The position numbers were made by a program, and so were the translations under genes. The notes under the pieces are model-generated. The model was not told the DNA's origin. It worked only from the letters and a program-made list of their open reading frames with translations, and did no database searches. Positions 20,187 to 39,060 of a stretch of DNA of 64,000 nucleotides are shown here, in pieces; position 1 is the first letter of the stretch, and each line of letters starts with the position of its first letter. The stretch is from Puniceicoccaceae bacterium (lineage in GTDB: Bacteria; Verrucomicrobiota; Verrucomicrobiia; Opitutales; JAFGAQ01): NCBI GenBank assembly GCA_028285755.1, contig JANQOQ010000004.1:322720-386719 (forward strand). The letters run 5' to 3'.

Positions 20187-23100
20187 ATCCAACCGATCAA
20201 AACACACCCGGTACCCCCCAAGACCGGAATGACGTAATCACCTGGTTCACGCGGAATTCGGTAGCTGCAAATCTGCTGATGGTTGCGCTGTTGCTAGGCG
20301 GGGCATTTGCCGCACTCAACATACGCCAGGAGGTATTTCCAAGTTATCAACTCGACTTCGTAGATATAGAGATGGCATATCCCGGGGCAAGCCCTGAAGA
20401 AATTGAAGATGGTATCATCCTCCCAATCGAAGAACAACTGCGCGGTTTGGAAATTGCAGAGCGAGTCATCGCTACGGCAACAGAAGGCAATGCTGAAATT
20501 GCTATAGAGCTTGCCGAAGGTGCAGATTCCGGTCGTGCCGTGCAGGACGTTTCCAATGCGATATCCCAAATCAATTTTTTTCCGGAAGATGCCGAAGAAC
20601 CGATTATAGGACTGCGCACGGAGAACGATGATGTCCTCTGGTTGATTGTATACGGTCCCCTCGAACAACGCCAAATCTTCCAACTCTCTGAACGCATCCG
20701 CAGAGATATAATCGCACTTCCTGAGGTATCTCAGGTGGGGATCAACTTGGGCCAACGTCCTGAAATTAATCTGGAAATTTCCGAAGAACGCTTGCGAGCT
20801 CTCGGCCTATCTCTGGATCAAGTGACTGATATTGTGCGTGAGAATGCACTGGACCTACCCGGGGGGGGAGTCCGTACACCTGGAGGTAATGTGCTATTGC
20901 GATCCAGCGAACGGCGAAATGATGCGATCAGCTACGGAGATATCCCGCTGGTGAATAGCGCGGATGGCGTCAAAATCAGAATCGAGGATGTTGCTGTTAT
21001 CACAGATGGCTTCGAAGACAAGCCTTTCGAAAACTATTACAACGGAGGGCGTGGGGTATTCATGTGGATCTACCGAAATGGCGATGAGAAACCGCTTGAA
21101 ATCGCTGCGGCAGTAAATGCCTATCTGGAAGAGCTTAGGCCTACTTTGCCAGAGGGAGTTTATGTTGAAGCGCTTAGAGACCGTGCTCAACAATATGAAT
21201 CCCGCCTCAATCTACTTGCGAAAAACGGTCTTATCGGTCTCGCGCTAATTCTCATAGTTCTGGGGCTCTTTCTCGAATCTCGCTTGGCTTTCTGGGTGGC
21301 AGTGGGTATTCCCACGACGATCATAGGGGCATTGGTGCTACTCCCACTATTGGACGCGAGTATTAACATGATCACGCTATTTGCCTTTATTATAACGCTG
21401 GGAATAGTCGTGGATGACGCGGTGATCGTCGGGGAAAATGTGTTCCATAAAATCCAATCGGGAGTGCCGAGACTTCAGGCTGCAGTCGAAGGAACTCGCG
21501 AAATGACAGTCCCTGTCCTCTTTGCCGTCATCACCAACATTATTGCCTTTCTGCCGCTTCTGTTCGTTCCCGGCGAATCCGGGCGTTTCTTCGCCCCGCT
21601 TCCGGCAGTCGTCATTGCTGTATTCCTGGTCTCCATTCTTGAAGCGCTGTTTATCCTCCCGGCTCACTTGGGTCACGGAGGCGATAAGCGATCATCTTCA
21701 ACCATTCTGGAAACCCTCAAAAAGCGTCAGGCAAAATTCAGCGCAGGCTTTGAAGATGCAACCGATCGTTACTTCGTCCCCCTGTTAAACTGGACGCTGA
21801 CAAACCGGTACCTTACCGTATCTGCAGTGACCATAACCGTAGGTATCATACTTGCCTATGCAATATCTGGTCGAGTCAATTATAGCTTTAACCCTGTGAT
21901 CGCCGGACTACGGGTAGACGCGGAAGTGCAGACCGCACCCGGGGCTCCCTTTGAAGATACTGTGCGTATCGCAAACCACGTCGAAGCGGCGGGAATACGC
22001 GCGGCCAACAGATTGGGTGGCATTGATGAAGTTGTAAAGGGTCGCATGAAGGTCATCGGTCGTTTGAACGAAAACTGGGTCGATATGAATTTCATACTGG
22101 TTGAGCCCCAGGAACGCGACTTTGACCAGGCAGAATTCGCACAACTTTGGCGGGAAGAAATCGGCATATTAGCGGGCCTCGAATCACTGTATTTTGAGTG
22201 GGAGGAAGGCCCTTCGTCCGGTTCCGGATTAACTATTGAGCTAAGCCACCCCGATCGTCGTAGCCTTGAGCAAGCAGCCAGCACCCTCGCAACCCGTATG
22301 GCCGAATATAATGGTGTAACGGATGTGAGGGATGGTTTTGCCGAAGGCAAACCTCAGCTCGATATTGAACTTACACCGGAGGGTCGCGCGTTGGGATTGA
22401 GCAGTGAGCAGGTCGCCAGGCAGATACGCTCATCCTTCTTTGGCGCGGAAGCTTTGCGATTCCAGCGAGGGCGTCATGACGTGCGCGTGATGGTGCGTTT
22501 ACCGGAACAAGAAAGACGCAGCCTTGCAAATGTCGAAAACCTGATTATCCGCACACCCAGTGGTGGTGAGGTGCCGCTTTCACAGGTCGCCGATCTTATG
22601 CCGGGTCGTGCCTTTACAGAGATTAGCCGTATTGATGGTCGACGCATTCTTACGGTTTCTGGAAATGTGATAGCAGAGCTAGCCAACGTAAACGACATCC
22701 GTACAACGTTGCAAACCCAGGTTTTCCCACAGCTTCAGTCCAACTTCCCGGAACTGGAAATCGGATTCGGCGGACGACAACGGGAAGAAGCACGAGCAAT
22801 GGAACGCCTGCAATTAGGGCTCATTATTGCCGGTTTCGCTATTTTTGGCCTGCTGGCATCACTCTTTCGTAGTTATGGACAAGCCATGCTGGTTCTCGGC
22901 ATTATACCGGTAGCGATAGCAGCCACTATTGTAGGACACGTACTGCTCGGACATGACTTATCAATCATAAGTTTATTCGGTATAATAGCCCTAAGCGGCC
23001 TATCCATTAATGGAGGACTGGTATTCACTCAGGAAATGAACCGTAGACTTCGATTCGAGGGGCACGCCCCTATGGAAGCAGCATTGGGTGCAGCAAGGCG

Positions 23101-23350
23101 CCGCTTTCGTCCCATACTACTCACGTCACTGACCACATTCGTCGGGCTCTCACCCATGATATTTGAAACAGATCCGCAAGCACTTTTCCTCGTACCGATG
23201 GCAATAGCACTCGGTTTGGGCAGTCTGATCAGCGGACTGACTTTACTTTTCACACTACCCGCTGCCATGCTCATTTATACAGACTTTCAATCACTCTTGA
23301 AACAGGATGACAAAGCATTCGATCCTACACCTACTATTCGCGAGCGATAA
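20183..23350 (+). CDS. RND efflux pump, AcrB/MMPL-type permease
   Basis: 1055 residues, the usual RND length. The first membrane helix at about 20-40 (SVAANLLMVALLLGGAFAAL) is followed by the porter domain opening YPGASPEEIEDGIILPIEEQ. The central helices include GIVVDDAVIVGENVFHKI on TM4, where the proton-relay aspartates lie, and FLPLLFVPGESGRFFAPLP. A second homologous half ends in helices such as LIIAGFAIFGLLASLFRSYG. It exports substrates by proton antiport together with the two preceding gene products. Substrate unknown; this subgroup (HAE/unknown-specificity, common in marine bacteria) often exports hydrophobic compounds. Confidence 0.93.
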   Translation: MNPTDQNTPGTPQDRNDVITWFTRNSVAANLLMVALLLGGAFAALNIRQEVFPSYQLDFVDIEMAYPGASPEEIEDGIILPIEEQLRGLEIAERVIATATEGNAEIAIELAEGADSGRAVQDVSNAISQINFFPEDAEEPIIGLRTENDDVLWLIVYGPLEQRQIFQLSERIRRDIIALPEVSQVGINLGQRPEINLEISEERLRALGLSLDQVTDIVRENALDLPGGGVRTPGGNVLLRSSERRNDAISYGDIPLVNSADGVKIRIEDVAVITDGFEDKPFENYYNGGRGVFMWIYRNGDEKPLEIAAAVNAYLEELRPTLPEGVYVEALRDRAQQYESRLNLLAKNGLIGLALILIVLGLFLESRLAFWVAVGIPTTIIGALVLLPLLDASINMITLFAFIITLGIVVDDAVIVGENVFHKIQSGVPRLQAAVEGTREMTVPVLFAVITNIIAFLPLLFVPGESGRFFAPLPAVVIAVFLVSILEALFILPAHLGHGGDKRSSSTILETLKKRQAKFSAGFEDATDRYFVPLLNWTLTNRYLTVSAVTITVGIILAYAISGRVNYSFNPVIAGLRVDAEVQTAPGAPFEDTVRIANHVEAAGIRAANRLGGIDEVVKGRMKVIGRLNENWVDMNFILVEPQERDFDQAEFAQLWREEIGILAGLESLYFEWEEGPSSGSGLTIELSHPDRRSLEQAASTLATRMAEYNGVTDVRDGFAEGKPQLDIELTPEGRALGLSSEQVARQIRSSFFGAEALRFQRGRHDVRVMVRLPEQERRSLANVENLIIRTPSGGEVPLSQVADLMPGRAFTEISRIDGRRILTVSGNVIAELANVNDIRTTLQTQVFPQLQSNFPELEIGFGGRQREEARAMERLQLGLIIAGFAIFGLLASLFRSYGQAMLVLGIIPVAIAATIVGHVLLGHDLSIISLFGIIALSGLSINGGLVFTQEMNRRLRFEGHAPMEAALGAARRRFRPILLTSLTTFVGLSPMIFETDPQALFLVPMAIALGLGSLISGLTLLFTLPAAMLIYTDFQSLLKQDDKAFDPTPTIRER

Positions 23351-23679: not shown

Positions 23680-24147
23680 ATGCAAAATCAGGTGGTAATA
23701 AGCATCAATCATTCGCAAATCGTGCATGAAACGATCGATGGGGAGACCATCATTCTCAATATGGACTCAGGAAGCTACTTTAGCCTAAATAACAGCGGTA
23801 CTGCGGTATGGGAATCTATTTCGTCTGGAGTGAGTTTAAACGAAATCGATAAAGAGCTGCAAAGAATCTATCCAAATACAGAAACCGTAAAAAATGATCT
23901 GGATGACTTTATTGAAAAACTGCTGGCTGAAGCACTACTCTCAAAAAATGCTAATACTGAAGAAAACGGCTCTGATTTCTCCAAAAAGCCAGAATCACTT
24001 CTTCACAATCTATCTCGCGATTCATACGAAAAACCCGCTTTTGAAAAATATACAGACATGCAGGATATTCTGCAGCTAGATCCTATTCACGAAGTTGATG
24101 AAGCAGCAGGTTGGCCGGTAGCAAAAATCCAGCCTGAGCATGCATGA
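23680..24147 (+). CDS. PqqD-family protein with conserved C-terminal tail
   Basis: 155 residues. Residues 1-90 are a PqqD-like winged-helix fold: ETIILNMDSGSYFSLNNSGT then AVWESI, and an acidic helical half. PqqD proteins bind a precursor peptide and deliver it to a modifying enzyme. The last 45 residues add KPAFEKYTDMQDILQLDPIH and EVDEAAGWP, a motif I recall from PqqD-like proteins encoded beside HprK-like kinases and family-5 nucleotidyltransferases. It overlaps the next gene by eight bases, so the operon is translationally tight. No radical-SAM enzyme, cyclase or precursor peptide is near, so its partner is unclear. Confidence 0.82.
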   Translation: MQNQVVISINHSQIVHETIDGETIILNMDSGSYFSLNNSGTAVWESISSGVSLNEIDKELQRIYPNTETVKNDLDDFIEKLLAEALLSKNANTEENGSDFSKKPESLLHNLSRDSYEKPAFEKYTDMQDILQLDPIHEVDEAAGWPVAKIQPEHA

Positions 24148-25282
24148 GGCCCACGCTCAATTAAGTTCTGCGTTTACCAACCCCAGTGAAGAACTCCTTC
24201 TAACGGCAGCCCTTATAGAGGGTCCACTTGGTTTAGCAGCCTGGGATAAATGGAAAAGGGAGGTAGATTTTGAATCCCACATGGATTATTCCTCATTTCG
24301 AATTCTACCTATACTCTATAAAAATCTGGCGAACCAAAGTGTAAGTGACCCGCTCATTGGCAGATTAAAGGGTATCTATAAGCACAGCTGGTTTAAGAAT
24401 CAGCAATTATTCTTAAAAACTGCTAAGGTTCTTCAATTTCTCAAAAACCAAAACATCCGATGTATGTTGCTGAAAGGGGCTGCGCTCAGCATCCAGGCTT
24501 ATGAGGACAATGCTATTCGCAGTATGGCGGATGTCGACTTCATGATTCATGTTTCTGATTTCAAAAAAGCGAATCAACATCTGCTGCAGCAGGGATGGAA
24601 GAGCCCCTATAAACAACCATTGAAGGAAATTATAAAATATCGAAAATCCATTCAATACATCAACTCAATCGGGGAAGAAATCGATATACACTGGAGTCCG
24701 TACAACGAATATAATCGTGATTACCTCGATGATATTTGGCAGAATGCTGAAAAGATACGATTTGCTAATATGGAAACATGGGCACCGAGTCTAACCGATT
24801 CACTCATTCATGTGATCATCCATGGCAGTTGCTGGAACGAGGAACGCACTTTCCGCTGGATCACAGATGCATCGGTTATTCTCAATAAAAAGGCAGATCA
24901 AATAGACTGGGATCGATTCATCGAAATCGCACAAAGAAACACCATTGGCAGTCGGGTTAATGATGCCATCAAGTATTTGAACAATCAAAATTTTGCGACA
25001 GTTCCGTCTGAAGTGATAGAGCAATTGGAGCAAGTCAAACCCAGGCAAAAGGAAAGAATTATTCGTAAATATGCGTTGGTAGACCCCGCATTATTTACCG
25101 CCAAGTTTGGATATATCCCGTTTTATTTATTGGATTGGTTCACTCTGAGCAACCAACAAAATATTTTCATGCTAATCTACCGTTTTCCGGGTTACCTTAA
25201 ATTTGTAAAATCGATGGACAGTATTCTAGAGGTCTATACTTATCTAGCAAAATCTGTAATCAAGAAGCTCTTCTGTCGTTAA
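24140..25282 (+). CDS. Family-5 nucleotidyltransferase-like protein (NTP_transf_5)
   Basis: 380 residues of the uncharacterised nucleotidyltransferase family PF14907. The pol-beta-like core shows MLLKGAALSIQAYEDNAIRS followed by MADVDFMIHV, where Asp-x-Asp would bind metal, and EIDIHWSPYNEY as the third acidic strand. Family members occur in lasso-peptide-like and glycan clusters. Substrates are mostly unproven; a nucleotidyl transfer onto a peptide or sugar is assumed from the fold. It overlaps the PqqD gene and is followed after 39 bp by the ABC exporter. Confidence 0.82.
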   Translation: MHEAHAQLSSAFTNPSEELLLTAALIEGPLGLAAWDKWKREVDFESHMDYSSFRILPILYKNLANQSVSDPLIGRLKGIYKHSWFKNQQLFLKTAKVLQFLKNQNIRCMLLKGAALSIQAYEDNAIRSMADVDFMIHVSDFKKANQHLLQQGWKSPYKQPLKEIIKYRKSIQYINSIGEEIDIHWSPYNEYNRDYLDDIWQNAEKIRFANMETWAPSLTDSLIHVIIHGSCWNEERTFRWITDASVILNKKADQIDWDRFIEIAQRNTIGSRVNDAIKYLNNQNFATVPSEVIEQLEQVKPRQKERIIRKYALVDPALFTAKFGYIPFYLLDWFTLSNQQNIFMLIYRFPGYLKFVKSMDSILEVYTYLAKSVIKKLFCR

Positions 25283-25321
25283 GCGAAATCCTTATCTCAT
25301 TTTCTATTAAAGACTTATAAC

Positions 25322-27010
25322 ATGCCTCAATCAAGTTTATCCCGGAAATTGCAGTTTGATCGCAGTGCATGGAAATACTACACGGGGTATTTCTCGTCTT
25401 TCAAAAAATCAATTTTGGGCACGAGTATTGTATCAGCGCTTCAGGGATTAATTATCATACCCCAACTGTTGATAATTAAGTATGCCTTCGATGTAGCTAT
25501 CCCGGAAAAATCAATAAGCATGTTGATGTGGATAGGTGTTGGCATACTTCTCATTCAAATCATTGATTCTCTGATTTCAATTGGTCTAAAATCAGTGCAC
25601 ATACGCATAATTCACGAGGCAATTTTCAATATTCGTAAGGATCTGGTCATGAAGTTATTTTCATTATCGCGTAGTTTCCACACCAATAGCGATCAGGGGC
25701 TCATTCACACCCGTGTAGTTCAAGATACTGAGAGACTGAGTAATATGAGCAACTCAATCGTCTCCAATTTGCTCCCGGCAATTTTTTCCAGCACTGCACT
25801 GTGTTTCGTTTTACTTTGGGTAAACTGGAGTCTCTTCCTGATCCTCATTGCTCTCTTCCCTCTCATCTATTTGTCCAACAAATTCATGGGGAAACGTATA
25901 AAGTCGCACGTTTATAAATTTCAGCGCGATTTTGAAGATTTTAACTCAGGGATTCGGTTTATTCTGCGTAATATTGATTTATCCAGGACTCAATCGGCCG
26001 AACCATTCGAGCAGGAAAGGCAATTTACGGTCTTGAAGCGCTTGAAAAAAGCGACGGTCAGAATGTTCCTGATCAATTCTGTGAATGGTAATCTGCAAAC
26101 AATAATCCGACGATTATCGGCAGTTTTAATCATTATTGTTGGAGGCTCTGCTGCAGCAAACGGTTCGATAACAATAGGTGCCCTTATCTCTTTCTTTATC
26201 GCTTCCACTCAGCTTAATAGCCGCATCGCAAATATCACCCAATCCTTTTCGGATATAGTTACCGGAAATGAATCGGTAAACACTTTGCATACCCTCATGC
26301 TTACTGATGATCCCGAGCCATACAGCGGTACTCGTAAGATTGATATAGCGGGTAATTTTAAGCTAAATAGAGTGACATTTTCCTATGACTCGAGAACCGT
26401 GCTTGAGGATATCAATCTGGAACTCAATAGCGGAACGTGCACCGCAATCATTGGTGATAATGGCACCGGAAAAACAACGCTTACCAACCTCATTCTGGGT
26501 TTCTATAAACCGAATACGGGATCAATTACCGTAGAGGGCCAGCCTTATGAGGCGCTTGATATCTCTCACATTCGGAAGTCGATAGGCCTTGTCCCACAGG
26601 AGCCCCAATTATTTTCAGGAACCATAAGGGAAAACATCACATACGGAAGCATAGATAGTCTAAGTGATGAATACCTAAAAATAATTGCTTCAATTTCAAC
26701 AGCAGATTCTTTTATATACACATTGGAGCATGCGCTTGATACGCAAATCGGAGACGGGGGGGTGCTTGTTTCCGGAGGGGAACGCCAGAAAATTGCTATA
26801 ATGAGAGCACTAATAGGAAACCCTAAATTACTGATACTCGATGAGCCTACGAATCACCTCGACATCCATTCGATCCACGCAATTACACAAAACATATCCA
26901 CTCTGGAATTTAAACCCGCTATACTGCTAATCAGCCATGACGATAAGGTCACCCAAATGGCTGACACCGTATACTCACTCAAGGATGGGTTTCTCGAACA
27001 GATTCAATGA
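25322..27010 (+). CDS. ABC exporter, fused membrane and ATPase domains
   Basis: 562 residues. The N-terminal half (about 25-300) has six predicted membrane helices of the type I exporter fold. The ATPase half begins near 330: Walker A GDNGTGKTT, Q-loop GLVPQEPQLFSGT, signature VSGGERQKIA and Walker B LLILDEPTNHLD. It would act as a homodimer in the inner membrane. No C39 peptidase domain is present, so it is not a leader-cleaving peptide exporter. The context (PqqD, nucleotidyltransferase, kinase, glycosyltransferases) suggests it exports the product of this operon. Confidence 0.9.
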   Translation: MPQSSLSRKLQFDRSAWKYYTGYFSSFKKSILGTSIVSALQGLIIIPQLLIIKYAFDVAIPEKSISMLMWIGVGILLIQIIDSLISIGLKSVHIRIIHEAIFNIRKDLVMKLFSLSRSFHTNSDQGLIHTRVVQDTERLSNMSNSIVSNLLPAIFSSTALCFVLLWVNWSLFLILIALFPLIYLSNKFMGKRIKSHVYKFQRDFEDFNSGIRFILRNIDLSRTQSAEPFEQERQFTVLKRLKKATVRMFLINSVNGNLQTIIRRLSAVLIIIVGGSAAANGSITIGALISFFIASTQLNSRIANITQSFSDIVTGNESVNTLHTLMLTDDPEPYSGTRKIDIAGNFKLNRVTFSYDSRTVLEDINLELNSGTCTAIIGDNGTGKTTLTNLILGFYKPNTGSITVEGQPYEALDISHIRKSIGLVPQEPQLFSGTIRENITYGSIDSLSDEYLKIIASISTADSFIYTLEHALDTQIGDGGVLVSGGERQKIAIMRALIGNPKLLILDEPTNHLDIHSIHAITQNISTLEFKPAILLISHDDKVTQMADTVYSLKDGFLEQIQ

Positions 27011-27028
27011 AAAGCTACCGATTGAAGG

Positions 27029-28822
27029 ATGCGTAACGCCAATTTCACAGAAACAGAACAGCTCGATTTTTTTAATCAGTGCCAAGAGCAATTTGTTCAG
27101 GCAGGGCAAACCACAGGATTGAGCAAATTCCATTATGATATTGCCGGCACCCATGTATGTCTGGAGTTTGCGGGCGAAGCCCTCATTCAAACGATCACAA
27201 GGGCGCTTGTACATCTACAAGTTGATACTAAGGAAACACCTGAGATTACAATCGGTGTCTGGGACTCTGCATCAACCTCCGTAAACATGACTCCTCCACC
27301 CTGCCATATAGATCATTTTACAGACCGGGGAGATATTTGGGGATTTAACAGCAATCGCATTAAAACGGCTTTTCACTGGAGCGATTATTCGGTTAATCTT
27401 TTAGACACTCATCAAAAAAGAGGTATTTATTGGGTCAATGATGCCAAGGCACTTCCCTATTGGGTACAATCTTCGCCCTTGAGGACCCTTTTTCACTGGT
27501 GGATGGAACTCCAGGGCAATCAACTCCTACATGCTGCGGCAGTCGGCAACAGCGAAGCCTGCGTCCTTATTCCCGCGAAGGGAGGTTCCGGGAAATCCAC
27601 TACATCCCTACTATGCCTGGATTATGGCCTGCAATACCTAGCAGATGATTATTTGATCCTCCAAAACAAGCCGAATCCGAAGGTATACAGCCTATATAGC
27701 ACCGCTAAAATTTTAAAAAGTAACCTGACTACTTTTTGCGAAACTAGTCTTCCGGTTGACCTCATACCCAATAATCAGAGCGAGAAAGAGGTCATTTACC
27801 TTTACCCCCAGTTATCTGGGAAAATCGTAAAAGCATTACCATTAATAGGTATTCTAGTACCCGAAATCACCCTTCAGCCAGAGACGAGTATTCATCCAAT
27901 ATCAGCCGACGAAGTCCATCGTGCAATGGCATTTACGACCCTCTCTCAATTACCCGGTGCCGGCAGCCATACCTATAACTTTATCCAAAATACAGTCTCG
28001 AAAACAGATTGCTACAAACTCAAGCTCGGTACCCGCTTTCAAGAAGTAGCTCCGGCAATCTCTCACTTTTTGGATAATCCCCAACACAGTCAGTACAGAA
28101 TCAATATACAAAAAAGTAAAATCCAGACTCAGGACTACCCGATGATTTCGATCATTCTCCCCATATTCAATGGCGCCAGGTTCATTGAGGTAGCGATTGA
28201 CAACATACTTTCACAAAACTACCCCGATATTGAAATAATTGCAGTTGACGATGGCTCTACTGATCAAAGCCTGGATATACTCAACCGCCTGAAGGCTGAG
28301 ATCCGCATACTCTCTCAGGATAATAAGGGACCTGCCGCCGCCCGCAACCGCGGAATTAAGGAGGCATCGGGTAAATACATCACATTTTTGGATGTTGATG
28401 ATCTCTGGCCGAAAAACAACCTCCTTAGATTAGCCCGGTTTATGGATGAAAACCAGGGGGTTGGTGTAGTCAAGGGACATGGGCAGGAGCTAACTATAAT
28501 GGAAGATGGATCCCATGATTTCATGGGTTCACCGGGTGCTTTATTCGACACGTACATTGGTAGTGCACTGTATCGCACCGAAGTTTTTCAAAAAGTCGGC
28601 CTATTTAACGAGCACTTAATCTATGGGGAAGATGGAGATTGGTTTGACAGGGCAAAGCAAAAGGACACCCAAATCATTGAGTTGGATGAAGTTACTCTAT
28701 TTGTAAGGAGGCACGGGAACAATCACACCGTGAAAGACAACTTTGAAGCAATCAACAACATATACATCGTCAAAAGCTACCTCGACAACAAGCGCAAACA
28801 AGATAGAAATACTTCACGATGA
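27029..28822 (+). CDS. HPr-kinase-like protein fused to a GT2 glycosyltransferase
   Basis: 597 residues with two clear parts. Residues 1-350 resemble HprK-like kinases: Walker A GGSGKST (185-191) in VLIPAKGGSGKSTTS and the double-Asp strand YLADDYLIL (Asp-206/207). From residue 371 a full GT-A domain begins, PMISIILPIFNGARFIEVAI, with IAVDDGSTDQS, the metal-binding TFLDVDDLW and a C-terminal LYGEDGDWFDRAKQ. HprK-like kinases in this setting phosphorylate or recognise a carrier peptide in some lasso clusters; GT2 enzymes transfer sugars from nucleotide donors. A fusion joining both is unusual. Start ATG at 27029 has GAAGG just upstream. It overlaps the next glycosyltransferase by four bases. 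Confidence 0.85.
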   Translation: MRNANFTETEQLDFFNQCQEQFVQAGQTTGLSKFHYDIAGTHVCLEFAGEALIQTITRALVHLQVDTKETPEITIGVWDSASTSVNMTPPPCHIDHFTDRGDIWGFNSNRIKTAFHWSDYSVNLLDTHQKRGIYWVNDAKALPYWVQSSPLRTLFHWWMELQGNQLLHAAAVGNSEACVLIPAKGGSGKSTTSLLCLDYGLQYLADDYLILQNKPNPKVYSLYSTAKILKSNLTTFCETSLPVDLIPNNQSEKEVIYLYPQLSGKIVKALPLIGILVPEITLQPETSIHPISADEVHRAMAFTTLSQLPGAGSHTYNFIQNTVSKTDCYKLKLGTRFQEVAPAISHFLDNPQHSQYRINIQKSKIQTQDYPMISIILPIFNGARFIEVAIDNILSQNYPDIEIIAVDDGSTDQSLDILNRLKAEIRILSQDNKGPAAARNRGIKEASGKYITFLDVDDLWPKNNLLRLARFMDENQGVGVVKGHGQELTIMEDGSHDFMGSPGALFDTYIGSALYRTEVFQKVGLFNEHLIYGEDGDWFDRAKQKDTQIIELDEVTLFVRRHGNNHTVKDNFEAINNIYIVKSYLDNKRKQDRNTSR

Positions 28823-29520
28823 GCAGACCCCGAATCAGTGTAATTGTAATCGTTAGAAATGGTGAAAGATTCATACATGAAGCCCTCGATAGCATACTTT
28901 TACAAGGAGATAGGATCGGCGAAATCGTAATCATCGATGGAAACTCCACAGACAGGACTGTAGAAATAGCACAATCATACGATAAGGTTGTTATTTACCC
29001 CCAAACCGGAAAGGGCTTTTCCCAGGCCTACAATCAAGGCATCCAAATTGCGAAACATGACCTGATCGCCTTCCTCTCCCACGATGATATCTGGACTGCA
29101 GACAAGCTGGAAATCCAGCTGCCGCACATGGAAAAAGATCCCAACCTGTTATTCACCATTAGCCATTTTAAGTTTTTTATGGAACCCGGCACTGAATCAC
29201 TTTCCGGTTATAAAAAGTCAGTAATGGAGGGACCGAAAATCGGTTTCTTACCGGAGACATTGATCGCGCGAAAATCTGTATTTACGCAAATAGGGCTATT
29301 CGACACAGCAATAGGAATGGGGCACGATATAGACTGGTTTTCAAGGGCTATAGATGCCGATATTCCCTACAAAGTGCTACCGGATGTTTTGCTTCACAAA
29401 CGCATTCACGGTGATAACTCATCACTGAAAGTCCAATCCCAGATCAAAGATATATTTGAGGTAGTTGTGAAATCGGTGCGTCGCAAAAAACAAATATCTG
29501 CAGCTACAAAAGGACAGTAA
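28819..29520 (+). CDS. GT2-family glycosyltransferase
   Basis: 233 residues, a single GT-A domain. PRISVIVIVRNGERFIHEAL opens the nucleotide-binding half; EIVIIDGNSTDRT carries the first acidic site and AFLSHDDIW the DxD-like metal site. The C-terminal half has MGHDIDWFSRAIDADIPYKV and LLHKRIHGDNSS, the same pattern as its two neighbours, so the three arose by duplication. Cytoplasmic, no membrane helices. Overlaps both neighbours (four bases upstream, one base downstream). Confidence 0.9.
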   Translation: MSRPRISVIVIVRNGERFIHEALDSILLQGDRIGEIVIIDGNSTDRTVEIAQSYDKVVIYPQTGKGFSQAYNQGIQIAKHDLIAFLSHDDIWTADKLEIQLPHMEKDPNLLFTISHFKFFMEPGTESLSGYKKSVMEGPKIGFLPETLIARKSVFTQIGLFDTAIGMGHDIDWFSRAIDADIPYKVLPDVLLHKRIHGDNSSLKVQSQIKDIFEVVVKSVRRKKQISAATKGQ

Positions 29521-30212
29521 TGGCATCACCTTTAATCAGCGTCATAATCCCCGCATATAATGCCGAACGCTTTATTGGTGAAGCACTCAAGAGTGTATTT
29601 GAGCAAAGTTATAGTAATATAGAGGTCATTGTAATCGATGACGGCTCTTCCGATAATACTGCAGGGACTGTTCAGGCCTTTTCAGCAGACATTCTATATA
29701 TCCGACAGGCCAACCAGGGCATAGGCGGAGCGCGGAACACCGGAATCCGCAAATCCAGTGGAGATTACCTAACGTTTCTCGACTCAGACGATCTTTGGCA
29801 TCCTGATAAGCTGAGCAAGCAAATCGCTTTCTTAACCAGTACTGACGATCTGGATATGTCGTTGGCCTTTGTAGAGCAATTCATCGATGATAGCGTCAAA
29901 GATTCGCCGGATGCACCTACACTGAAAGAAGCAAATCGTGTCATGCCCGGCTATGTTGCAGGCACCATGATGATATCCCGAAATGCTTTTGAAAAGGTCG
30001 GTTACTTTAACACGGAGTTGAAAGTCGCCGAGTTTGTAGACTGGATTGATCGTTTCAAATCAACGGATATGCAGTATGCGGTAATGCAGGAAGTGTTGCT
30101 ACGCAGGCGAATCCACAGCACCAATCAGGGGATCACCCAAAAAGCCCACATGGCAGACTACCTCAAAGTGCTCAGACGATCCATACACATGAAGAAAAAA
30201 GCCTCTCTGTAA
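29520..30212 (+). CDS. GT2-family glycosyltransferase
   Basis: 230 residues and the third tandem glycosyltransferase. The GT-A core is SVIIPAYNAERFIGEALKSV, VIVIDDGSSDNT and TFLDSDDLWHPDKL. The end holds LKVAEFVDWIDRFKSTD and LLRRRIHSTNQG, aligned with the motifs of the two preceding proteins. Its start (29520) overlaps the stop of the preceding gene by one base (TAATG). It is last in the plus-strand operon, which converges with the aminoethylphosphonate operon 170 bp on. Acceptor and donor are unknown. Confidence 0.9.
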   Translation: MASPLISVIIPAYNAERFIGEALKSVFEQSYSNIEVIVIDDGSSDNTAGTVQAFSADILYIRQANQGIGGARNTGIRKSSGDYLTFLDSDDLWHPDKLSKQIAFLTSTDDLDMSLAFVEQFIDDSVKDSPDAPTLKEANRVMPGYVAGTMMISRNAFEKVGYFNTELKVAEFVDWIDRFKSTDMQYAVMQEVLLRRRIHSTNQGITQKAHMADYLKVLRRSIHMKKKASL

Positions 30213-30226
30213 ACCCATCCTAGCAC

Positions 30227-30251
30227 TTCAGTTTTCAGGGGTTTTGAAATG
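30227..30251 (+). repeat. Left member of imperfect direct repeat flanking the phosphonate operon
   Basis: TTCAGTTTTCAGGGGTTTTG then AAATG matches 35013-35037 (TTCAGTTTCCAAAGGGTTTG then AAATG) at 21 of 25 positions without gaps, same orientation. The pair brackets 30382-34782. This copy also folds weakly (TGAAAT with ATTTCA). Confidence 0.4.
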
Positions 30252-30381
30252 GCATTGCAAAACTATTTCAGACCCTTGGAATTACTGGTGAAATAGCTTG
30301 TAGATCGCATCGACACCTATTTCGAGAAAAATGCCAAACCATATGAGCAGAGCATCCGGTTCACAAGATCATCTCCCCTAA

Positions 30382-31485
30382 TCACGCATGAGTCAGATAC
30401 TTGCATCTGCTCATTTCAGTAACGAGTCTGTCAATATCATCTTTAGTGAGCTGCCCAATGGTTCCAATTCGAAAACTTTTCATGTTTGCGAGCTTACCCG
30501 GATAAATGTGCAATCGTTTTTCCGCCAGATAAGAGTAGAGTGATTCAAAACTGGATATGCGATCACCCGGAAAAGCCGTTATGACGGGACCCTGCAAGGA
30601 TCGATCCAGTAGCGGCCTCAAGTTCAAGGTTTCCATTCGTTGAACCAAATGCTCTTGAAGTTTGGAATAACGAAGTGCCCGAGCTGCTGTGCCCCCTTCT
30701 TCCAGAAACAGATTGAGTGCTTCTCTGAAGGCGAGCACTGCGTGCGTAGGTGGAGTGAAGCGAAACTGACCATGAGCCTCCAAATACCTCCACTGCGAAT
30801 AAAGATCGAGACTAAGGCTCGGTGAGTTATCGGCAGATTGTTGAAGCAATGCCTCGGTAGCAATTGCGAATGCAAATCCCGGAACACCCTCGAGACACTT
30901 GTTGGCCGAAGACACCACACAATCTATCGAGTTCTTAATATTAAGAGGGATTGCTCCAAAGCTGCTCATGGCGTCCACGACTACTGTAAGCTTATAGGCC
31001 TTTGCCAGTTTTGTTATCGAATCAACCGGATTCACAATACCCGTAGTGGTTTCACAATGCACCAAGGCTATTGCATTGATGTTCGCATTCTCCTCTAGCG
31101 CCTTTTGCACCATTTGAGGATGCAGCGGCATCAAAGGGTCGCACGAAATTGACACGACGGAACGTCCCGCTTGCCGAACGATATTGCCTAAGCGTTTTCC
31201 ATACTCACCATTCTCGAGAACCAGCAGGCTATCTTCGGGCCCCAAAAGGCTCAAAAGAACACTCTCCAGGGCATAAGTACCGCTTCCTTGTATAGGAACT
31301 ACGGTATAACCATCTTCCGGGCGAAGATCTGCGGCGTGTATTAGATCTTTGCGAATGGAATCGAGAATTTCGATAAACTCAGGGCTGCGCGAGCCGAGAT
31401 CTCTTTGCATCGCTGATAGCACGGACGGCGCACAGTTCGCAGGTCCTGGCGTGAAAAGGATGTGGTTTTCGTTAGATTCAGTCAA
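30382..31485 (-). CDS. phnW: 2-aminoethylphosphonate-pyruvate transaminase-like, biosynthetic direction
   Basis: 367 residues, class V PLP-dependent aminotransferase. FTPGPANCAPSVLSAMQRDL at the start and GSGTYALESVLLSLLGPEDS near 70 are typical of PhnW/AEP transaminases. The PLP site shows HCETTTGIVNPV, VVDAMSSFGAIPL and the Schiff-base lysine in SSANKCLEGVPGFAF. In degraders it turns AEP into phosphonoacetaldehyde. Here, behind PEP mutase and phosphonopyruvate decarboxylase, it would run the other way and make AEP. Overlaps the decarboxylase gene by four bases. Last gene of the operon. Confidence 0.9.
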   Translation of the reverse strand: MTESNENHILFTPGPANCAPSVLSAMQRDLGSRSPEFIEILDSIRKDLIHAADLRPEDGYTVVPIQGSGTYALESVLLSLLGPEDSLLVLENGEYGKRLGNIVRQAGRSVVSISCDPLMPLHPQMVQKALEENANINAIALVHCETTTGIVNPVDSITKLAKAYKLTVVVDAMSSFGAIPLNIKNSIDCVVSSANKCLEGVPGFAFAIATEALLQQSADNSPSLSLDLYSQWRYLEAHGQFRFTPPTHAVLAFREALNLFLEEGGTAARALRYSKLQEHLVQRMETLNLRPLLDRSLQGPVITAFPGDRISSFESLYSYLAEKRLHIYPGKLANMKSFRIGTIGQLTKDDIDRLVTEMSRCKYLTHA

Positions 31486-32639
31486 AATTCTTCTTTAAGG
31501 AAGGACATAAACCGTTCCTTCACTTCTACCGGGGATAGTTTGGGGCGACCCAGGTTGCGCATCGAACCGGAGCGTATCTTCATGTGGATGAGGTTGGGGC
31601 CTTCAAGTTCAATCATATTGGCAATGGATTCCCTTAATTCACTCAGGGTATTTGCAACGGCTACATGACGGTAATTGGTTGCGGCTGCAAAACTGGCAAA
31701 ATCAACTGTAGCCGATGATGTGCTTTGGCCCCCTGTCGAATCATGAACTTCGTTATCAAGGATCAGGTGTATTAAATTACTGGGGCAGGCCGCACCTACG
31801 CTGGCCATCGCGCCGAGTTTCATGAGCGCGGCTCCATCTCCGTCGATTACCATCACAGGTCTGTTAATATTCACGGCAACCCCCAGGCCAATGGCTGAGG
31901 CAGTACCCATTCCACCGACAACGTAAAAATGCTGCTTACGGTCACTCAATGTATACAGTTCGCGACTCGTTTTTCCCGTTGTCGAAACAACTGCTGCATG
32001 CTCTGGAATTGTTTCGAGAAGGGTTTCAAGGGCGGCCAACCGAGTGGGTCGATCATTCTTAGGAAGCGATACGTCAGAGTATTTCTGAAGCCACTTGGTT
32101 TTGATACGCTTAACCTTTTGATCGCTCAGCGTCTCTACAGGTGAGATGTCCCCCTTTCGCATCACAAAGGCGTAAGGGCGCGATGACTGCTGCATCCACA
32201 TCACGGCATCATTTACCACTGAGTCGATAATTTCAGTAGATTGCGGAAAGGCGTGATGAGGTATTTGCATCAAATCCAACAGCTGTTGCGTAATTTGCCC
32301 CATCAGCTCATGTTGCGGTTCATCAGACCTGCCCGGTTCACCACGCCAGCTCGTAATAACCAAAGTAGGTATTTTAAACGGATAGTTTAATGAGGTCAGA
32401 GGATTTACCATGTTGCCCAATCCTGAGTTTTGGCAAATGGAAATCGTTTTTCGACCCGCGAGATACGCGCCTAGTGTGATACCGACAGCTTCTCCCTCGC
32501 TGGATGCTGGAATATAATCAAGATCCGGTGAATCTATGACCTGATTAATGAATGGCTTAAGAAACGAGCAGGGCACCCCACTTACAAAGGTATGTTTGTG
32601 TTGTTTAAGTGCTTGAATAAATGCAGATGCTTCAATCAT
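31482..32639 (-). CDS. ppd: Phosphonopyruvate decarboxylase
   Basis: 385 residues, thiamine-diphosphate enzyme. The N-terminal PYR domain has FVSGVPCSFLKPFINQVI and the binding-face glutamate in PASSEGEAVGI. The C-terminal PP domain has the metal/ThDP motif VIDGDGAALMKLGAMAS through HLILDNEVHDSTGGQ, characteristic of Ppd over sulfopyruvate decarboxylase. It removes CO2 from phosphonopyruvate to give phosphonoacetaldehyde, pulling the unfavourable mutase step forward. It overlaps both neighbours by four bases, so all genes of the operon are translationally coupled. Confidence 0.93.
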   Translation of the reverse strand: MIEASAFIQALKQHKHTFVSGVPCSFLKPFINQVIDSPDLDYIPASSEGEAVGITLGAYLAGRKTISICQNSGLGNMVNPLTSLNYPFKIPTLVITSWRGEPGRSDEPQHELMGQITQQLLDLMQIPHHAFPQSTEIIDSVVNDAVMWMQQSSRPYAFVMRKGDISPVETLSDQKVKRIKTKWLQKYSDVSLPKNDRPTRLAALETLLETIPEHAAVVSTTGKTSRELYTLSDRKQHFYVVGGMGTASAIGLGVAVNINRPVMVIDGDGAALMKLGAMASVGAACPSNLIHLILDNEVHDSTGGQSTSSATVDFASFAAATNYRHVAVANTLSELRESIANMIELEGPNLIHMKIRSGSMRNLGRPKLSPVEVKERFMSFLKEEF

Positions 32640-33544
32640 CCTTCATTGTTGGAGTGCACATTCTCAGGAGTATATAATTGTTCGTCCCTATTCAATTCAT
32701 CTACCTTTTGCAGCCTGAAAACCTCATCAATCGGTGCGATATGTTCCTCAATATGTTTGATCGACTTCTGCTCGTAGATCATTCGCGCTGCATCTTGCAT
32801 CGCAGAAATGGAAGCACGTACCAAGTGGTTTGCCCAAACAACCATACTAATACCCGCATCTATATAGACTTGGTTGGGTGTATCTCCGTAAGTAGTCGGT
32901 ATAATGACAAGCGGGCAAGGACGATCCCATGCTTCCGCAAACGCAAGGACTTCATCAGGAGTATTTTGCTTACTGTGTACCAAAATCGCATCCGCTCCAG
33001 CTGCGTAGTATCTATCCGCACGATCCAGATTATCATGCAGTGGTATACCTGCTATAAAGCCCTCCAGCCTTGCAATGACCGTAAAGTTACCACTGTTCTG
33101 GCAATCCTTAGCTGCGCGAATTTTTCCCGCAAACTCTTCCGGGTCTTCCAGTATTTGCACCCCACTCGTAAATGAGTTACGCTTCGGGAATTTTTTGTCT
33201 TCTAGACATACGCCTTCGAGTCCTCGTTGCTCCAGCTTGCGGACTAGCCTGCGAACATTGTTAAAATTTCCAAATCCTGTATCACCATCAACAAGGATAG
33301 GTGTTTGAGGGGCAGCATCACGCATAAATTCGACCACCTCCAATACCTGCGTCCAACTGGCCTCATTGCAGTCGCGAACACCTAATCCGGCACTAATGGA
33401 AAGGCTGCTGGCCCAGATACCACGGAAACCGGTTTCTTCAACGATTCTTGCGCTCAATCCATTATGAGCTTCCATCAGAAACTCTAATTGATCGGACCTC
33501 AGAAGCTCCAACAGTGTAGGTCTCTTGTTCATTTCCTGTTTCAT
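32636..33544 (-). CDS. pepM: Phosphoenolpyruvate phosphomutase
   Basis: 302 residues, isocitrate-lyase superfamily barrel. The diagnostic PEP-mutase motif EDK-x5-NS is present: LEDKKFPKRNSF (Glu-115, Asp-116, Lys-117, Asn-123, Ser-124). Metal-binding Asp-86/Asp-88 lie in ILVDGDTGFGN. It rearranges phosphoenolpyruvate to phosphonopyruvate, the entry step of nearly all phosphonate natural products. Residues 280-302 extend slightly past the usual end (RDEQLYTPENVHSNNEG). The gene sits between the TTL-like gene and the decarboxylase with four-base overlaps. Confidence 0.95.
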   Translation of the reverse strand: MKQEMNKRPTLLELLRSDQLEFLMEAHNGLSARIVEETGFRGIWASSLSISAGLGVRDCNEASWTQVLEVVEFMRDAAPQTPILVDGDTGFGNFNNVRRLVRKLEQRGLEGVCLEDKKFPKRNSFTSGVQILEDPEEFAGKIRAAKDCQNSGNFTVIARLEGFIAGIPLHDNLDRADRYYAAGADAILVHSKQNTPDEVLAFAEAWDRPCPLVIIPTTYGDTPNQVYIDAGISMVVWANHLVRASISAMQDAARMIYEQKSIKHIEEHIAPIDEVFRLQKVDELNRDEQLYTPENVHSNNEG

Positions 33545-34782
33545 ACGGCTGGATCTTTACTCACTCCTTCTCTCCCACGAAAATAGTTTTCAGTAGGTTG
33601 ATTTACCAGTTCCGGCTGCAGTTCATTGATCACCCAGTCATAGTTCTTCACTGACTTCAGGTTGTCCAGTGGTTTCGACTTGGTTCTGCGCCGTCTCACT
33701 TCCAATACGATACGGGCGGCTTCACCCAGCATGGGAGGTATCACCTCCTTTTTAACCGGATCGTCAAAACTAAGGCCCGGTCCTATTTGAACTTCTGACA
33801 GCCAGGGTGTGAGCTGGTCATCGAGAATCATATCCGCTCCGAAGAGTGCAAAGCAGTCTCCCAGTTTGGGGTACCCCCTCTCCAGCTGGTCTCTGGCTGC
33901 ATAAGTAACCGTAGCCAGAATTTGCCGAATACGTGGCCTCAGTTGCTCTTTGATAAAATTCGGATCGGTGTAGCCTAAAGTTTCGTGCAGGTATTTGCCT
34001 AAAGTTTGAAAGGGCCACTTCAATACTACACTGGGATCGTAGTCCGGGTGGTTTTTTTGCTGATAAACATTTGTAACATGAATGAGTTGATTATCGAAAT
34101 CATCCAGTGTGAAAGGGAGACTGTTCAGGCGAACGGTGCACTCAGGATAGACCAGCACCTGAAGCGGGTTCAGATTCAGCACTAGCCAATAAACCCGAAT
34201 CTCTGATTTGCGCCCTTCAAGAAGGAGTGGGTTCTGAATGTATCGTTGGATAATTCCTTGTTGCTTCTTATCAGTGATCGGGCGATCCCCCCACTTTCTG
34301 TATTTCTTCTTCAGGTTATTGAAACGCCACATGATTTCAATCCCTCGGCCCCGGGATTGGTCGCCCGGTTTATAGATCCAAATATTCTTTCGATCATCGA
34401 CGATCGGGACGGAGTCCAGGAAGTATTTACGTTCAGCAGGATCGAAAAGCCTGTAGGTCTCGGGATAAAACTGGTCTATCGAAAGAAGCTCATCCGGGCT
34501 TACCGGCTCAAAATTTTTAAGCGTACTGGTCAAATTGCCTTTATTGATCAGAGAGGACTCTCCCGGAAAATGATTCAACAGTTGGAATGGACGTAACAAA
34601 CGAAACTTATCACGATAGTTTTTCCGCAGCCACAACAGCTCAGAATGTTCCGGGAAAAGAGCCATCGTATGCCCTTCCATTATAAATGCCTTCCGAGCTG
34701 ATCTTGAAGCCTCGTCGCAGAATATGCGCGAAGTTGGGGTAAAGATATTTGAAAGAAATGACATCAACCTTTTAGTCAGCAA
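33541..34782 (-). CDS. Tubulin-tyrosine-ligase-like ATP-grasp ligase in a phosphonate operon
   Basis: 413 residues of the TTL branch of the ATP-grasp fold. Nucleotide-binding parts are WIYKPGDQSRGRGIEIM (Lys and glycine-rich loop), IIQRYIQNPLLLEGRKSEIR then VYWLV, and the metal site FALFGADMILDDQL followed by SEVQIGPGLS (TTL-type E-x-N-like position here Glu-Val-Gln). TTL enzymes join an amino acid to a carboxylate through an acyl-phosphate. It overlaps pepM by four bases and is first in the operon, so it should act with AEP synthesis. An obvious guess is amide bonding of AEP, or of a carrier, to a carboxylate. Bacterial TTL proteins are uncommon and mostly uncharacterised. N-terminal ~35 residues are poorly conserved. 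Confidence 0.75.
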   Translation of the reverse strand: MLTKRLMSFLSNIFTPTSRIFCDEASRSARKAFIMEGHTMALFPEHSELLWLRKNYRDKFRLLRPFQLLNHFPGESSLINKGNLTSTLKNFEPVSPDELLSIDQFYPETYRLFDPAERKYFLDSVPIVDDRKNIWIYKPGDQSRGRGIEIMWRFNNLKKKYRKWGDRPITDKKQQGIIQRYIQNPLLLEGRKSEIRVYWLVLNLNPLQVLVYPECTVRLNSLPFTLDDFDNQLIHVTNVYQQKNHPDYDPSVVLKWPFQTLGKYLHETLGYTDPNFIKEQLRPRIRQILATVTYAARDQLERGYPKLGDCFALFGADMILDDQLTPWLSEVQIGPGLSFDDPVKKEVIPPMLGEAARIVLEVRRRRTKSKPLDNLKSVKNYDWVINELQPELVNQPTENYFRGREGVSKDPAV

Positions 34783-35802: not shown

Positions 35803-35872
35803 CACTAAGGTTTAGCTATGTCAATAGGAGGGGGCAAGGCGTTTCGATGTTCAGTCAGACGTAGGTTCATTC
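35803..35872 (-). repeat. attC-like repeat, copy C, ends conserved and centre diverged
   Basis: It starts CACTAA like the copy near 36483 and ends CGTAGGTTCATTC, identical over 13 bases to both other copies. The centre is unrelated. Conserved ends with a variable middle is the way attC sites vary. It lies between cassette genes 3 and 2 and overlaps the stop codon of gene 3. Confidence 0.55.
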
Positions 35873-36395
35873 ACAAACCTATAAGCATTAAACTAGATGG
35901 CCAAGGATATATAAACTTTACTAATTTGCTGTTTTTAAGTTTCCATGGAATATCACGATCCTCAGCTAATAAACTGGTTATCCAAACCTTGCGTCCATCC
36001 TTTAGTTGAAAACACATGTAACAATAGTCTTCCCAAGGGAGTAATTGTAATCCTTTCACAGCTTTCGAGGCAGTTTTTTGAATAATCACTCTTTCAACTT
36101 CATCATTAGTAAATCGAATACTTTTTTTGCCAGAAATATATTCAATTTGCTTTTCCTTGGATTTTAGAATCAATTTCGCATTACCATTTAATAAGGTATA
36201 TTTAATATGCAGGGGTATTTGTATAACACTTAGTATGATAACTAAACCCCAGAGTGATGAGTACAATCCTCCAAAATTGTATTCATCATAATTATTCACT
36301 ACATAATAATAAGCAAATATACATCCTAGACAATACAATGGCAGTGTCCAAAATAAATAAATATGCCGCACCAAACTAGGCGTTAGGGTTTTCAT
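35871..36395 (-). CDS. Two-helix membrane protein of unknown function (cassette gene 3)
   Basis: 174 residues. Two membrane segments lie near the start: about 12-32 (FWTLPLYCLGCIFAYYYVV) and 44-64 (LYSSLWGLVIILSVIQIPLH). A cytoplasmic beta-rich part follows, LILKSKEKQIEYISGKKSIR then FTNDEVERVIIQ, with a DGRKVWITSLL hairpin. This resembles small PH-like or bPH-type membrane proteins, but that is only a shape impression. Its stop codon is in repeat C and 94 bases separate its start from repeat B. Confidence 0.6.
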   Translation of the reverse strand: MKTLTPSLVRHIYLFWTLPLYCLGCIFAYYYVVNNYDEYNFGGLYSSLWGLVIILSVIQIPLHIKYTLLNGNAKLILKSKEKQIEYISGKKSIRFTNDEVERVIIQKTASKAVKGLQLLPWEDYCYMCFQLKDGRKVWITSLLAEDRDIPWKLKNSKLVKFIYPWPSSLMLIGL

Positions 36396-36489: not shown

Positions 36490-36546
36490 CAATAAACCCA
36501 GTAAGCCGGCATCCGCCCTGCTTATGGTTGGCCCGTAGGTTCATTC
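36490..36546 (-). repeat. attC-like repeat, copy B (57 bp)
   Basis: Near-identical to copy A (53 of 57). The left context CACTAACGCG (36480-36489) is shared in part with copy C and with the 17362 copy. Its right end contains the stop codon of the FAD oxidoreductase gene (36541-36543), so the boundary of the cassette row coincides with that gene's 3' end. Confidence 0.7.
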
Positions 36547-37977
36547 CTCAGAATTAAGTGTAGCACCCTGACTGGTTAATTTTTCCCTTAGTTGAGTTAC
36601 GTCGATATCTCGTACATCTGAATTATCCCTTGCAGCCAATGCAATACCCAGGCCTGCCGCGTGGCCCAGATCCATCATGGTGCGGCTTAAACGGCAACTC
36701 GAAGCAGCCACATGAGAAAAGCTCGCACCTCTGCAAGCTACCAATAAATTGCTAAATCCTTTGGGAATCAGGCAACGATAAGGAATACCATACGGAGCCT
36801 CTAATTCTATTGCTCCGCGAGAGTCTTCACCGTGGGAGTCCATGGAGTGATCCGCAATAGCGATGATATCTTCATGGGTTTGACTAGATAAGCCTGCAAG
36901 CAAATCGTGCTCAGTTAGGATATAATCCCCTACAACGCGTTGTGTCTCACGAACACCCAAAGAAGGGGCTATCCAGCTGATCTTGAAGGGCCGGAATTCA
37001 TCATAACGTGCACGAAGATACTCCCAGTGTGCAGATGCCCTTTTTTTGCATTCCTCATAGGCTTCCTTGTAGCCGTTTGTACCATCTTCAAGATACCGCA
37101 TAAGTTCACGCCCCTCCATAGTCGGCAACATATTAATATTTTTGTCCCCGTTCGGATAGTTAAAGATCACAGCAATAGGCCATTTGCTTGCAAACCAGCA
37201 ATCCGGGGGTGAACCCGAAATTTTTGATAGCGTACCTTCCTGGCTTACCCGATAAATCAGCGAAACCGCATTCACCGAATGACTCTTAGCATATTTGGGC
37301 GCGTGCTGCTCCTCAAAGGCGGAATAAGGTTCCTTGCCCTGCATTATTTCACATCCGAGATCCTTGCAAAGGTGCACTCCTGCTGATGAATCCACAAAGT
37401 AATTGGCCACCAGTTCAATTTCACCCAAGTCCGACTCCAGATATATTGAATGTACTTTACCGCTATCGTGCTTAACCCCCGTGTATGTTGTATTAAAAAA
37501 GCATTCACAATTCCCGGATTCCTGTAGTAGGTCATATTGAATTTTTGCCATCGCATCGGGCTCAAAAGTCATTGAATTCCAGAGCTCTTTTACCTTTTCA
37601 GCATCCTTTATGATACCCTTTGTGCCATGCCTGATTAGCGTGTCCTCATAGCTGCGATCCGGATCCAGAGTGAGTTCACCGCCGGGAAAATTCTGATTTT
37701 CGGGACCATCCCAACAGAGGTGGCGGCTCTGTTTACTGATTCCTACCGCAAGTGGTATTTGCTTAAGTCGCTTATAAATCTCATAGGGAAATGCGGTGCC
37801 TCCTATTCCAGATTCCCAGTTGTTAACACCCCCATGGACCGCATTACCGCCAAGCATATTCATCTTTTCAATTAAGGCGACCTTCAGACCACTTCTTGCT
37901 GCGGCTAAGGCGGCGCCAAATCCTCCGCTGCCTCCACCAATTACACAAAGATCGAATTTTCTAAGACTTGACTCCAT
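36541..37977 (-). CDS. FAD-dependent oxidoreductase (FAD_oxidored family)
   Basis: 478 residues. The Rossmann FAD site is LCVIGGGSGGFGAALAAARS then GLKVALIEK; the glycine-rich MLGGNAVHGGVNNWESG follows. The C-terminal signature ADHSMDSHGED, PYRCLIPKGFSNLLVACRG and SSCRLSRTMMDLGHAAGLGI is typical of PF12831 proteins, frequent in glycan loci of Verrucomicrobiota and Planctomycetota. No signal peptide, so it acts in the cytoplasm; the reaction is not established. It is a paralogue of 49281-50726, with the same motifs in order. Upstream lies an operator also found before the TonB receptor gene. Divergent from the aldo/keto reductase. Confidence 0.85.
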   Translation of the reverse strand: MESSLRKFDLCVIGGGSGGFGAALAAARSGLKVALIEKMNMLGGNAVHGGVNNWESGIGGTAFPYEIYKRLKQIPLAVGISKQSRHLCWDGPENQNFPGGELTLDPDRSYEDTLIRHGTKGIIKDAEKVKELWNSMTFEPDAMAKIQYDLLQESGNCECFFNTTYTGVKHDSGKVHSIYLESDLGEIELVANYFVDSSAGVHLCKDLGCEIMQGKEPYSAFEEQHAPKYAKSHSVNAVSLIYRVSQEGTLSKISGSPPDCWFASKWPIAVIFNYPNGDKNINMLPTMEGRELMRYLEDGTNGYKEAYEECKKRASAHWEYLRARYDEFRPFKISWIAPSLGVRETQRVVGDYILTEHDLLAGLSSQTHEDIIAIADHSMDSHGEDSRGAIELEAPYGIPYRCLIPKGFSNLLVACRGASFSHVAASSCRLSRTMMDLGHAAGLGIALAARDNSDVRDIDVTQLREKLTSQGATLNSEE

Positions 37978-37982
37978 AAATA

Positions 37983-37998
37983 GATTAATGCTTTAATC
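37983..37998. promoter_or_regulatory. Operator GATTAATGCTTTAATC before the FAD oxidoreductase
   Basis: An inverted repeat GATTAA-N4-TTAATC directly upstream (6 bp) of the FAD gene start. The same 16-mer, with one change, is at 56534-56549 before the TonB receptor. The likely binder is the LacI regulator at 56629-57621. It lies in the 109-bp gap shared with the plus-strand catabolic operon, which also contains the palindrome GTTAATCATTAAC at 38045-38057. Confidence 0.65.
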
Positions 37999-39052: not shown

Positions 39053-39060
39053 GCGACAAA

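Follow-up and report, generated by a model that had tools for sequence, protein, structure and literature searches.

A candidate RiPP-type cassette whose recognition element carries its own leader-like tail

We analysed a stretch of 64,000 nucleotides from a Puniceicoccaceae bacterium (assembly GCA_028285755.1, contig JANQOQ010000004.1, positions 322,720 to 386,719 of the forward strand; hereafter the window), in which a plus-strand operon and a minus-strand phosphonate operon led by a TTL-like gene converge at positions 23680-34782. The first plus-strand gene (23680-24147, 155 codons) encodes a PqqD-like recognition element (RRE) of the kind that serves ribosomally synthesized and post-translationally modified peptides (RiPPs), and this RRE ends in a conserved tail that resembles a RiPP leader. 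We found that the cassette formed by such a tailed RRE, an HprK-like kinase, an NTP_transf_5 nucleotidyltransferase and glycosyltransferases (GTs) is widespread and apparently undescribed. It is best read as a variant of the RRE/HprK RiPP-type machinery in which the RRE bears its own leader-like tail. In its specific form, to which we give a probability of only about 0.3, the RRE would be fused to its own leader or substrate peptide and recognise it in cis, and the cassette would build a phospho-glycan on or next to the tail.

The tailed protein comprises an RRE domain at about residues 14-87 (PF05402, 49.2 bits, E 6.6e-13), a variable linker (residues 88-115) and a conserved C-terminal tail (residues 116-147, YEKPAFEKYTDMQDILQLDPIHEVDEAAGWPV; codons at 24025-24120). 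With a hidden Markov model of the PqqD domain only, by which the tail cannot drive detection, homologues fell into two discrete groups, one of 15 proteins extended by 51-72 residues and one of 27 ending 0-11 residues past the domain. A D-P-[IL]-H motif was present in all 15 long proteins and in none of the 27 short ones, and a sixteenth tailed member was found afterwards. The consensus of the tail, [Y/F]xxP...DMQxLLLxDPIHEVDxxGWP, lies within this C-terminal extension. Among 15 homologues, D134, P135 and H137 are invariant, D126, I136 and W145 are conserved in at least 90%, and the proline of the [Y/F]xxP start is kept in 13. The mean frequency of the top residue is 0.62 in the tail, 0.45 in the RRE domain and 0.23 in the linker. 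The tail that a preliminary description of this DNA had singled out as "YTDMQ...DPIHEVDE" is real and conserved across homologues. We did not find the motif in the open literature searched, which leaves out most subscription papers, and relatives of the tailed protein or of the TTL-like protein were absent from the viral contigs searched. The nearest solved relatives of the tailed RRE are TbiB1 (5v1u/5v1v), a lasso RRE, and LppB (9x8z), which the tailed-RRE profile matches at E 4e-17 and E 1.8e-5, respectively. Against the PQQ-biosynthesis model TIGR03859, the protein scored 28.4 bits, below the cut-off of 46.

Besides the present locus, 15 further tailed-PqqD loci were found on a cyanobacterial plasmid and in Pseudomonadota-type genomes. 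They come from a sample of genomes only: one is the Crinalium plasmid, 13 were taken from neighbourhoods with PF14907 and PqqD matches, and one was added later. For seven of the 15, PqqD alone led to the locus, with no use of an NTP_transf_5 search. Over all 16 loci, the partners of the tailed PqqD are NTP_transf_5 (in every case), HprK (in 15) and at least one clear family 2 glycosyltransferase (GT2; in 14), the exceptions for GT2 being L157 (a weak match only) and L110 (none). The only other recurrent neighbour is GT4, the remainder being unrelated, and the ABC exporter is accessory, being absent from most sister loci (its protein cluster was seen in 3 of 15 loci). On the Crinalium epipsammum plasmid (NC_019735.1), the tailed PqqD stands with NTP_transf_5, an HPr kinase, an FkbM methyltransferase and a GT2, and the region continues with further GT, TPR, NTP_transf_5 and ABC genes, none of them for phosphonates. 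The first NTP_transf_5 of Crinalium (L044:6367-7428) has lost the acidic residues of its DxD motif (SNFHLLV, compared with ADVDFMI at the present locus), and a second copy lies on the plasmid. At another locus (L046:12040-14811), the tailed PqqD gene is directly followed by a gene for a 924-residue protein with four GT2 domains.

At the present locus, the nucleotidyltransferase is an MNT-like protein encoded at 24140-25282 on the plus strand (PF14907, 148.3 bits, E 3.9e-43; alignment of 15 sequences). The kinase (residues 1-363) is fused to a GT2 domain (about residues 372-590) in the product of 27029-28822, also on the plus strand; this fusion was seen only here, the kinase being a separate gene in the other loci. 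On its own sequence, the HprK half gave no Pfam match, being too diverged for the model, and it scored 22.9 bits against the HprK-related kinase A model TIGR04352 (cut-off 200). It is 36% identical over 93% to the free-standing HPr kinase on the Crinalium plasmid, and the 15-member profile of the kinase family matches the solved HprK 1jb1 (E 2e-4). The residues H168, K189, D206 and D207 are present in the fusion; H168, K189 and D207 are invariant in the family and D206 is conserved in at least 90%. From their order and place, they are probably the same four residues as the His-Lys-Asp-Asp motif demonstrated in lasso kinases (PMC9266682). In pseudomycoidin, studied in the same work, the kinase adds phosphate to the C-terminal Ser, and the addition of hexose to the phospho-Ser requires PsmN, the homologue of the nucleotidyltransferase.

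Components known from the clusters of lasso peptides and of linear polyphosphorylated peptides (LPP) were also looked for. First, asparagine synthetase and B2 protease gave no match near the present or the other tailed loci; both are present beside several untailed PqqDs. Second, no conserved small ORF (open reading frame) that could be a free YxxP precursor was found in the 15 loci, which hold scattered, unconserved candidates only. Third, no archaeal-type SpI signal peptidase is encoded in the plus-strand operon, all ORFs of which belong to other families. The preliminary description had likewise reported the cyclase, protease and precursor as missing, and none was found in or beside the operon.

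We then compared the leader-binding cleft of the two RRE classes. LppB uses D70 to bind the Tyr of the leader and N33 to hold the leader kinked at its Pro. The residue equivalent to D70 is an Asp in 24 of 27 untailed RREs but in only three of 15 tailed ones, and the leader-binding residues D70 and V35 are lost from most tailed RREs. The RRE of the present locus retains the equivalents of N33 (N37) and D70 (D73), and the three tailed RREs with Asp at this position, the present one included, all have the tail Tyr. An acidic residue (D/E) occupies the D70 position in five of six proteins with the tail Tyr and in two of ten with another residue there (Fisher p 0.035; 16 sequences, phylogeny not controlled). 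Such pairing would be expected of a tail lodged in the cleft of its own RRE, for which a strong pocket for binding in trans would no longer be needed.

On this basis, we propose that the [Y/F]xxP start of the tail may occupy the cleft of its RRE in cis, just as the leader of lasso and LPP precursors does in trans. The docked tail would present its LLxDPIHEVDxxGWP block to the kinase, the nucleotidyltransferase and the glycosyltransferases, which would add phosphate and sugar to an acceptor, either a peptide or a glycan. Several observations weigh against this cis-recognition proposal. The RRE/tail covariation is only marginal, as it comes from 16 sequences without phylogenetic correction. A single-sequence AlphaFold model of the tailed PqqD reached a mean pLDDT of 37.6 and gives docking in cis no structural support. 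No kinase was detected within 20 kb of the tailed PqqD gene in G701 (locus L157). Finally, no Ser or Thr is conserved among the tails, and the tail of L111 has none at all, which makes the tail unlikely as the general Ser/Thr acceptor of the kinase. Its role could possibly be docking or presenting, or it could be modified elsewhere, for instance on the invariant His or the almost invariant Trp.

A less likely alternative is that the tail serves only to dock or assemble HprK or NTP_transf_5, the cassette acting on a sugar or a peptide encoded elsewhere and the RiPP-type logic being gone. The loss of the D70 and V35 equivalents from most tailed members would fit this, as would GT2 and GT4 being the sole recurrent neighbours; it does not account well for the xxxP that opens the leader-like part, retained in 13 of 15 tails, nor for N37 and D73 in the RRE of the present locus. 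Of about equal weight is the alternative that the tail is itself the modified substrate, that is a precursor fused to the RRE, glycosylated and perhaps phosphorylated on DPIHEVDxxGWP, then exported or released. Its YxxP start is leader-like, its conservation peaks at the core-like end, the 15 loci offer no free precursor, and the same enzymes modify peptides in the LPP and pseudomycoidin systems. However, no peptidase is at hand to free a core, the kinase finds no conserved Ser or Thr, and RiPP cores are usually more variable than leaders. We reject a decayed lasso cluster, since the tailed class is discrete and recurs in 16 loci, which is not what a decayed one-off would leave.

The preliminary description had proposed that the two convergent operons form a single locus for export of a glycan or glycopeptide decorated with 2-aminoethylphosphonate (AEP), using a carrier recognised by the PqqD protein. 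We consider such a joint system, in which the plus-strand operon makes and exports the product and the minus-strand operon adds AEP, improbable. It would suit the direct adjacency of the operons (169 bp apart), the presence of GT2s and an exporter, and the AEP decoration of surface glycans in other bacteria (PMC6697681). However, PepM, Ppd, PhnW and TTL are missing within about 20 kb from all 15 other tailed-PqqD loci, which thus carry the cassette intact at sites without phosphonate genes, an arrangement that the description itself had named as telling against its proposal. Moreover, the operons are convergent, not co-transcribed, and no cytidylyltransferase is fused to PepM or encoded in its operon, unlike in the usual surface-tailoring Pnt route; none was found either among ORFs of the window from 17.4 kb onward, the part that was scanned. 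In 384 sampled genomes of the class, a true PepM occurs in 13 and a tailed PqqD in 10 (each count including the present genome), the latter being a lower bound as it was obtained through PF14907 neighbourhoods. Both were found together in the present genome only (Fisher p 0.29 with the present locus and 1.0 without it). Since the 52 nearest genomes contain no TTL-like homologue and no close NTP_transf_5 homologue, relatives give no empty site; none was found in family members, where the flanking genes have no orthologous neighbourhood. We thus hold it somewhat better than an even bet that these are two functionally separate cassettes which converge by chance of position, with the cis-leader proposal as the best explanation of the plus-strand one. 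The AEP-decorated joint product is dropped; for the carrier that the PqqD protein was proposed to recognise, the protein's own tail is now a concrete candidate.

The minus-strand operon consists of TTL-pepM-ppd-phnW. The stand-alone PEP (phosphoenolpyruvate) mutase PepM (32636-33544; TIGR02320, 348 bits, cut-off 320) has the motif EDKxxxxxNS as EDKKFPKRNS. It is followed by the phosphonopyruvate decarboxylase Ppd (31482-32639; TIGR03297, 427 bits, cut-off 312) and a PhnW-type AEP transaminase (30382-31485; TIGR03301, 379 bits, cut-off 361), so that all three are above curated cut-offs. Together, PepM, Ppd and PhnW make AEP from PEP. The first gene encodes a TTL-like ATP-grasp ligase (33541-34782; PF03133, 168 bits, E 4e-49, cut-off 20.1); its listed start is TTG, with an alternative ATG at residue 7. 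The nearest solved relatives of this protein are the tubulin ligases TTLL3 and TTLL6, and the motifs KPG..SRGRGI, QRYI..PLL..GRK and PWL.E.Q are conserved. A structure prediction from six sequences gave no usable model.

When genome contigs were scanned with the TTL-like protein, five homologues came up, at 57-61% identity. One of them lies on a Verrucomicrobiia contig of 5.2 kb (L011:452-4986) with the full four-gene order TTL-pepM-ppd-phnW and identities of 58% (TTL), 71% (PepM), 62% (Ppd) and 49% (PhnW), which overturned our first impression that TTL never occurs with PepM. On this short contig there is no PqqD gene, a further point against a joint system, and no other gene that would indicate the product. 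The other four homologues have no adjoining phosphonate genes: two lie in topA-xerC-TTL-gltX and two in Rhodobacteraceae, one of these (L012) beside phenylacetate genes. Counting the present locus, six intact TTL-like genes were seen, two of them next to PepM. The conserved four-gene order at L011 supports TTL-pepM-ppd-phnW as a real, cross-phylum cassette; the TTL-like gene also travels on its own. The TTL-like enzyme would couple an amine, plausibly AEP via its amine, to a carboxylate; the genomes of the four solitary homologues have no PepM above the cut-off, which weakens AEP as its substrate. Two large genomes that belong to one family and lack a true PepM contain broken remnants of the TTL-like gene (L006/L008 in G141 and L007 in G306). 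Further, a record titled Akkermansia muciniphila (CAMAWP010000002.1) is almost identical in gene order and proteins to a Pedosphaera metagenome-assembled contig from Lake Baikal (L009/L010), so that its organism name looks wrong.

The ten ORFs of the locus, six on the plus and four on the minus strand, were confirmed in position and domains by the ORF list and by Pfam/TIGR scans, as first named. The plus-strand genes not yet described are an MsbA-like ABC exporter with transmembrane and nucleotide-binding domains (25322-27010; PF00664 and PF00005; 276 bits against the MsbA model, below its equivalog cut-off of 602) and two GT2s (28819-29520, PF00535, 95 bits; 29520-30212, PF00535, 130 bits). 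Four-base overlaps, noted earlier throughout the phosphonate operon, are indeed found at its three junctions, and the plus-strand junctions are mixed (in order, an 8-bp overlap, a 39-bp gap, an 18-bp gap, a 4-bp overlap and a 1-bp overlap). The GC content at third codon positions did not distinguish the two operons, and a promoter and terminator scan gave matches at chance level. Immediately upstream, 17466-23350 encodes a complete RND efflux set (OEP, membrane fusion protein and pump), one of four such pumps in the genome. Upstream of the TTL gene lies an ORF of 174 residues with hydrophobic stretches (35871-36395), whose GC content of 0.32 is far below that of its neighbours. Beyond it, the block at 36541-50774 contains two FAD_oxidored paralogues (50% identical), an aldo-keto reductase, a glycerol-3-phosphate-dehydrogenase-like DAO protein, an aldolase, an FGGY kinase, an aldehyde dehydrogenase (ALDH), an iron-containing alcohol dehydrogenase (Fe-ADH), a beta-helix protein and an SSF symporter, with a sulfatase and a TonB receptor further on; it looks like a block for the use of polyols or sulfated sugars.

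The tail motif offers a simple handle for finding the cassette across cyanobacteria and several proteobacterial lineages, where precursor-based RiPP mining would probably miss it for want of a precursor gene. A tail that acts in cis would make this an unusual recognition domain with a recognition sequence of its own, and would help to show what NTP_transf_5 (PF14907) does, the LPP relative of which had no effect in a heterologous host (PMC13381572). Likewise, the conservation of the order TTL-pepM-ppd-phnW hints at an enzyme that may ligate AEP by a path other than the usual cytidylyl route.

With respect to known systems, the preliminary description was right that the plus-strand operon resembles lasso-type gene sets with PqqD-like, HprK-like, NTP_transf_5 and ABC genes. 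The closest parallel is LPP (LppA/B/K/N/S/D; Popov et al. 2026, PMC13381572), whose clusters combine a discrete RRE, an HprK kinase, an NTP transferase and an MsbA-like exporter. There, the precursor peptide bears a YxxP leader, and a single Ser receives several phosphates from the kinase. Like LPP clusters, which often lie among glycosyltransferase genes, the present cassette has a discrete RRE, a kinase with His-Lys-Asp-Asp residues, an NTP transferase, an MsbA-like transporter (its score being below the cut-off) and a YxxP-type recognition sequence, and lacks a lasso cyclase and B2. Unlike them, it has no SipW-like SpI signal peptidase and no separate LppA precursor (YxxPxVLxHQxIxFETxxS); its RRE carries a conserved C-terminal tail of its own, GT2 is a regular member, and the Tyr-binding Asp is mostly lost. 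The paeninodin and pseudomycoidin lasso clusters (PadeK, PsmK, PsmN; PMC9266682) share the RRE, the His-Lys-Asp-Asp kinase, an NTP_transf_5-type enzyme and the ABC exporter, but also have the asparagine-synthetase-like cyclase, the B2 protease and the precursor gene. Having no signal peptidase, free precursor, cyclase or B2, the cassette thus falls outside the LPP and lasso systems, although it is made of the same parts. The RRE-glycosyltransferase fusions and orphan RREs of RRE-Finder (PMC7470986, PMC12710340) also pair RREs with PF00535 glycosyltransferases, the present RRE being fused to a short conserved peptide rather than to an enzyme. On the opposite strand, the operon shares PepM, Ppd and the AEP transaminase with Pnt/AEP biosynthesis clusters (PMC6697681), from which it differs by its stand-alone PepM, by the absence of a cytidylyltransferase and by its first gene, the TTL-like ATP-grasp enzyme. 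That enzyme has the PF03133 ATP-grasp domain and motifs in common with TTLL3 and TTLL6 but, unlike them, is bacterial.

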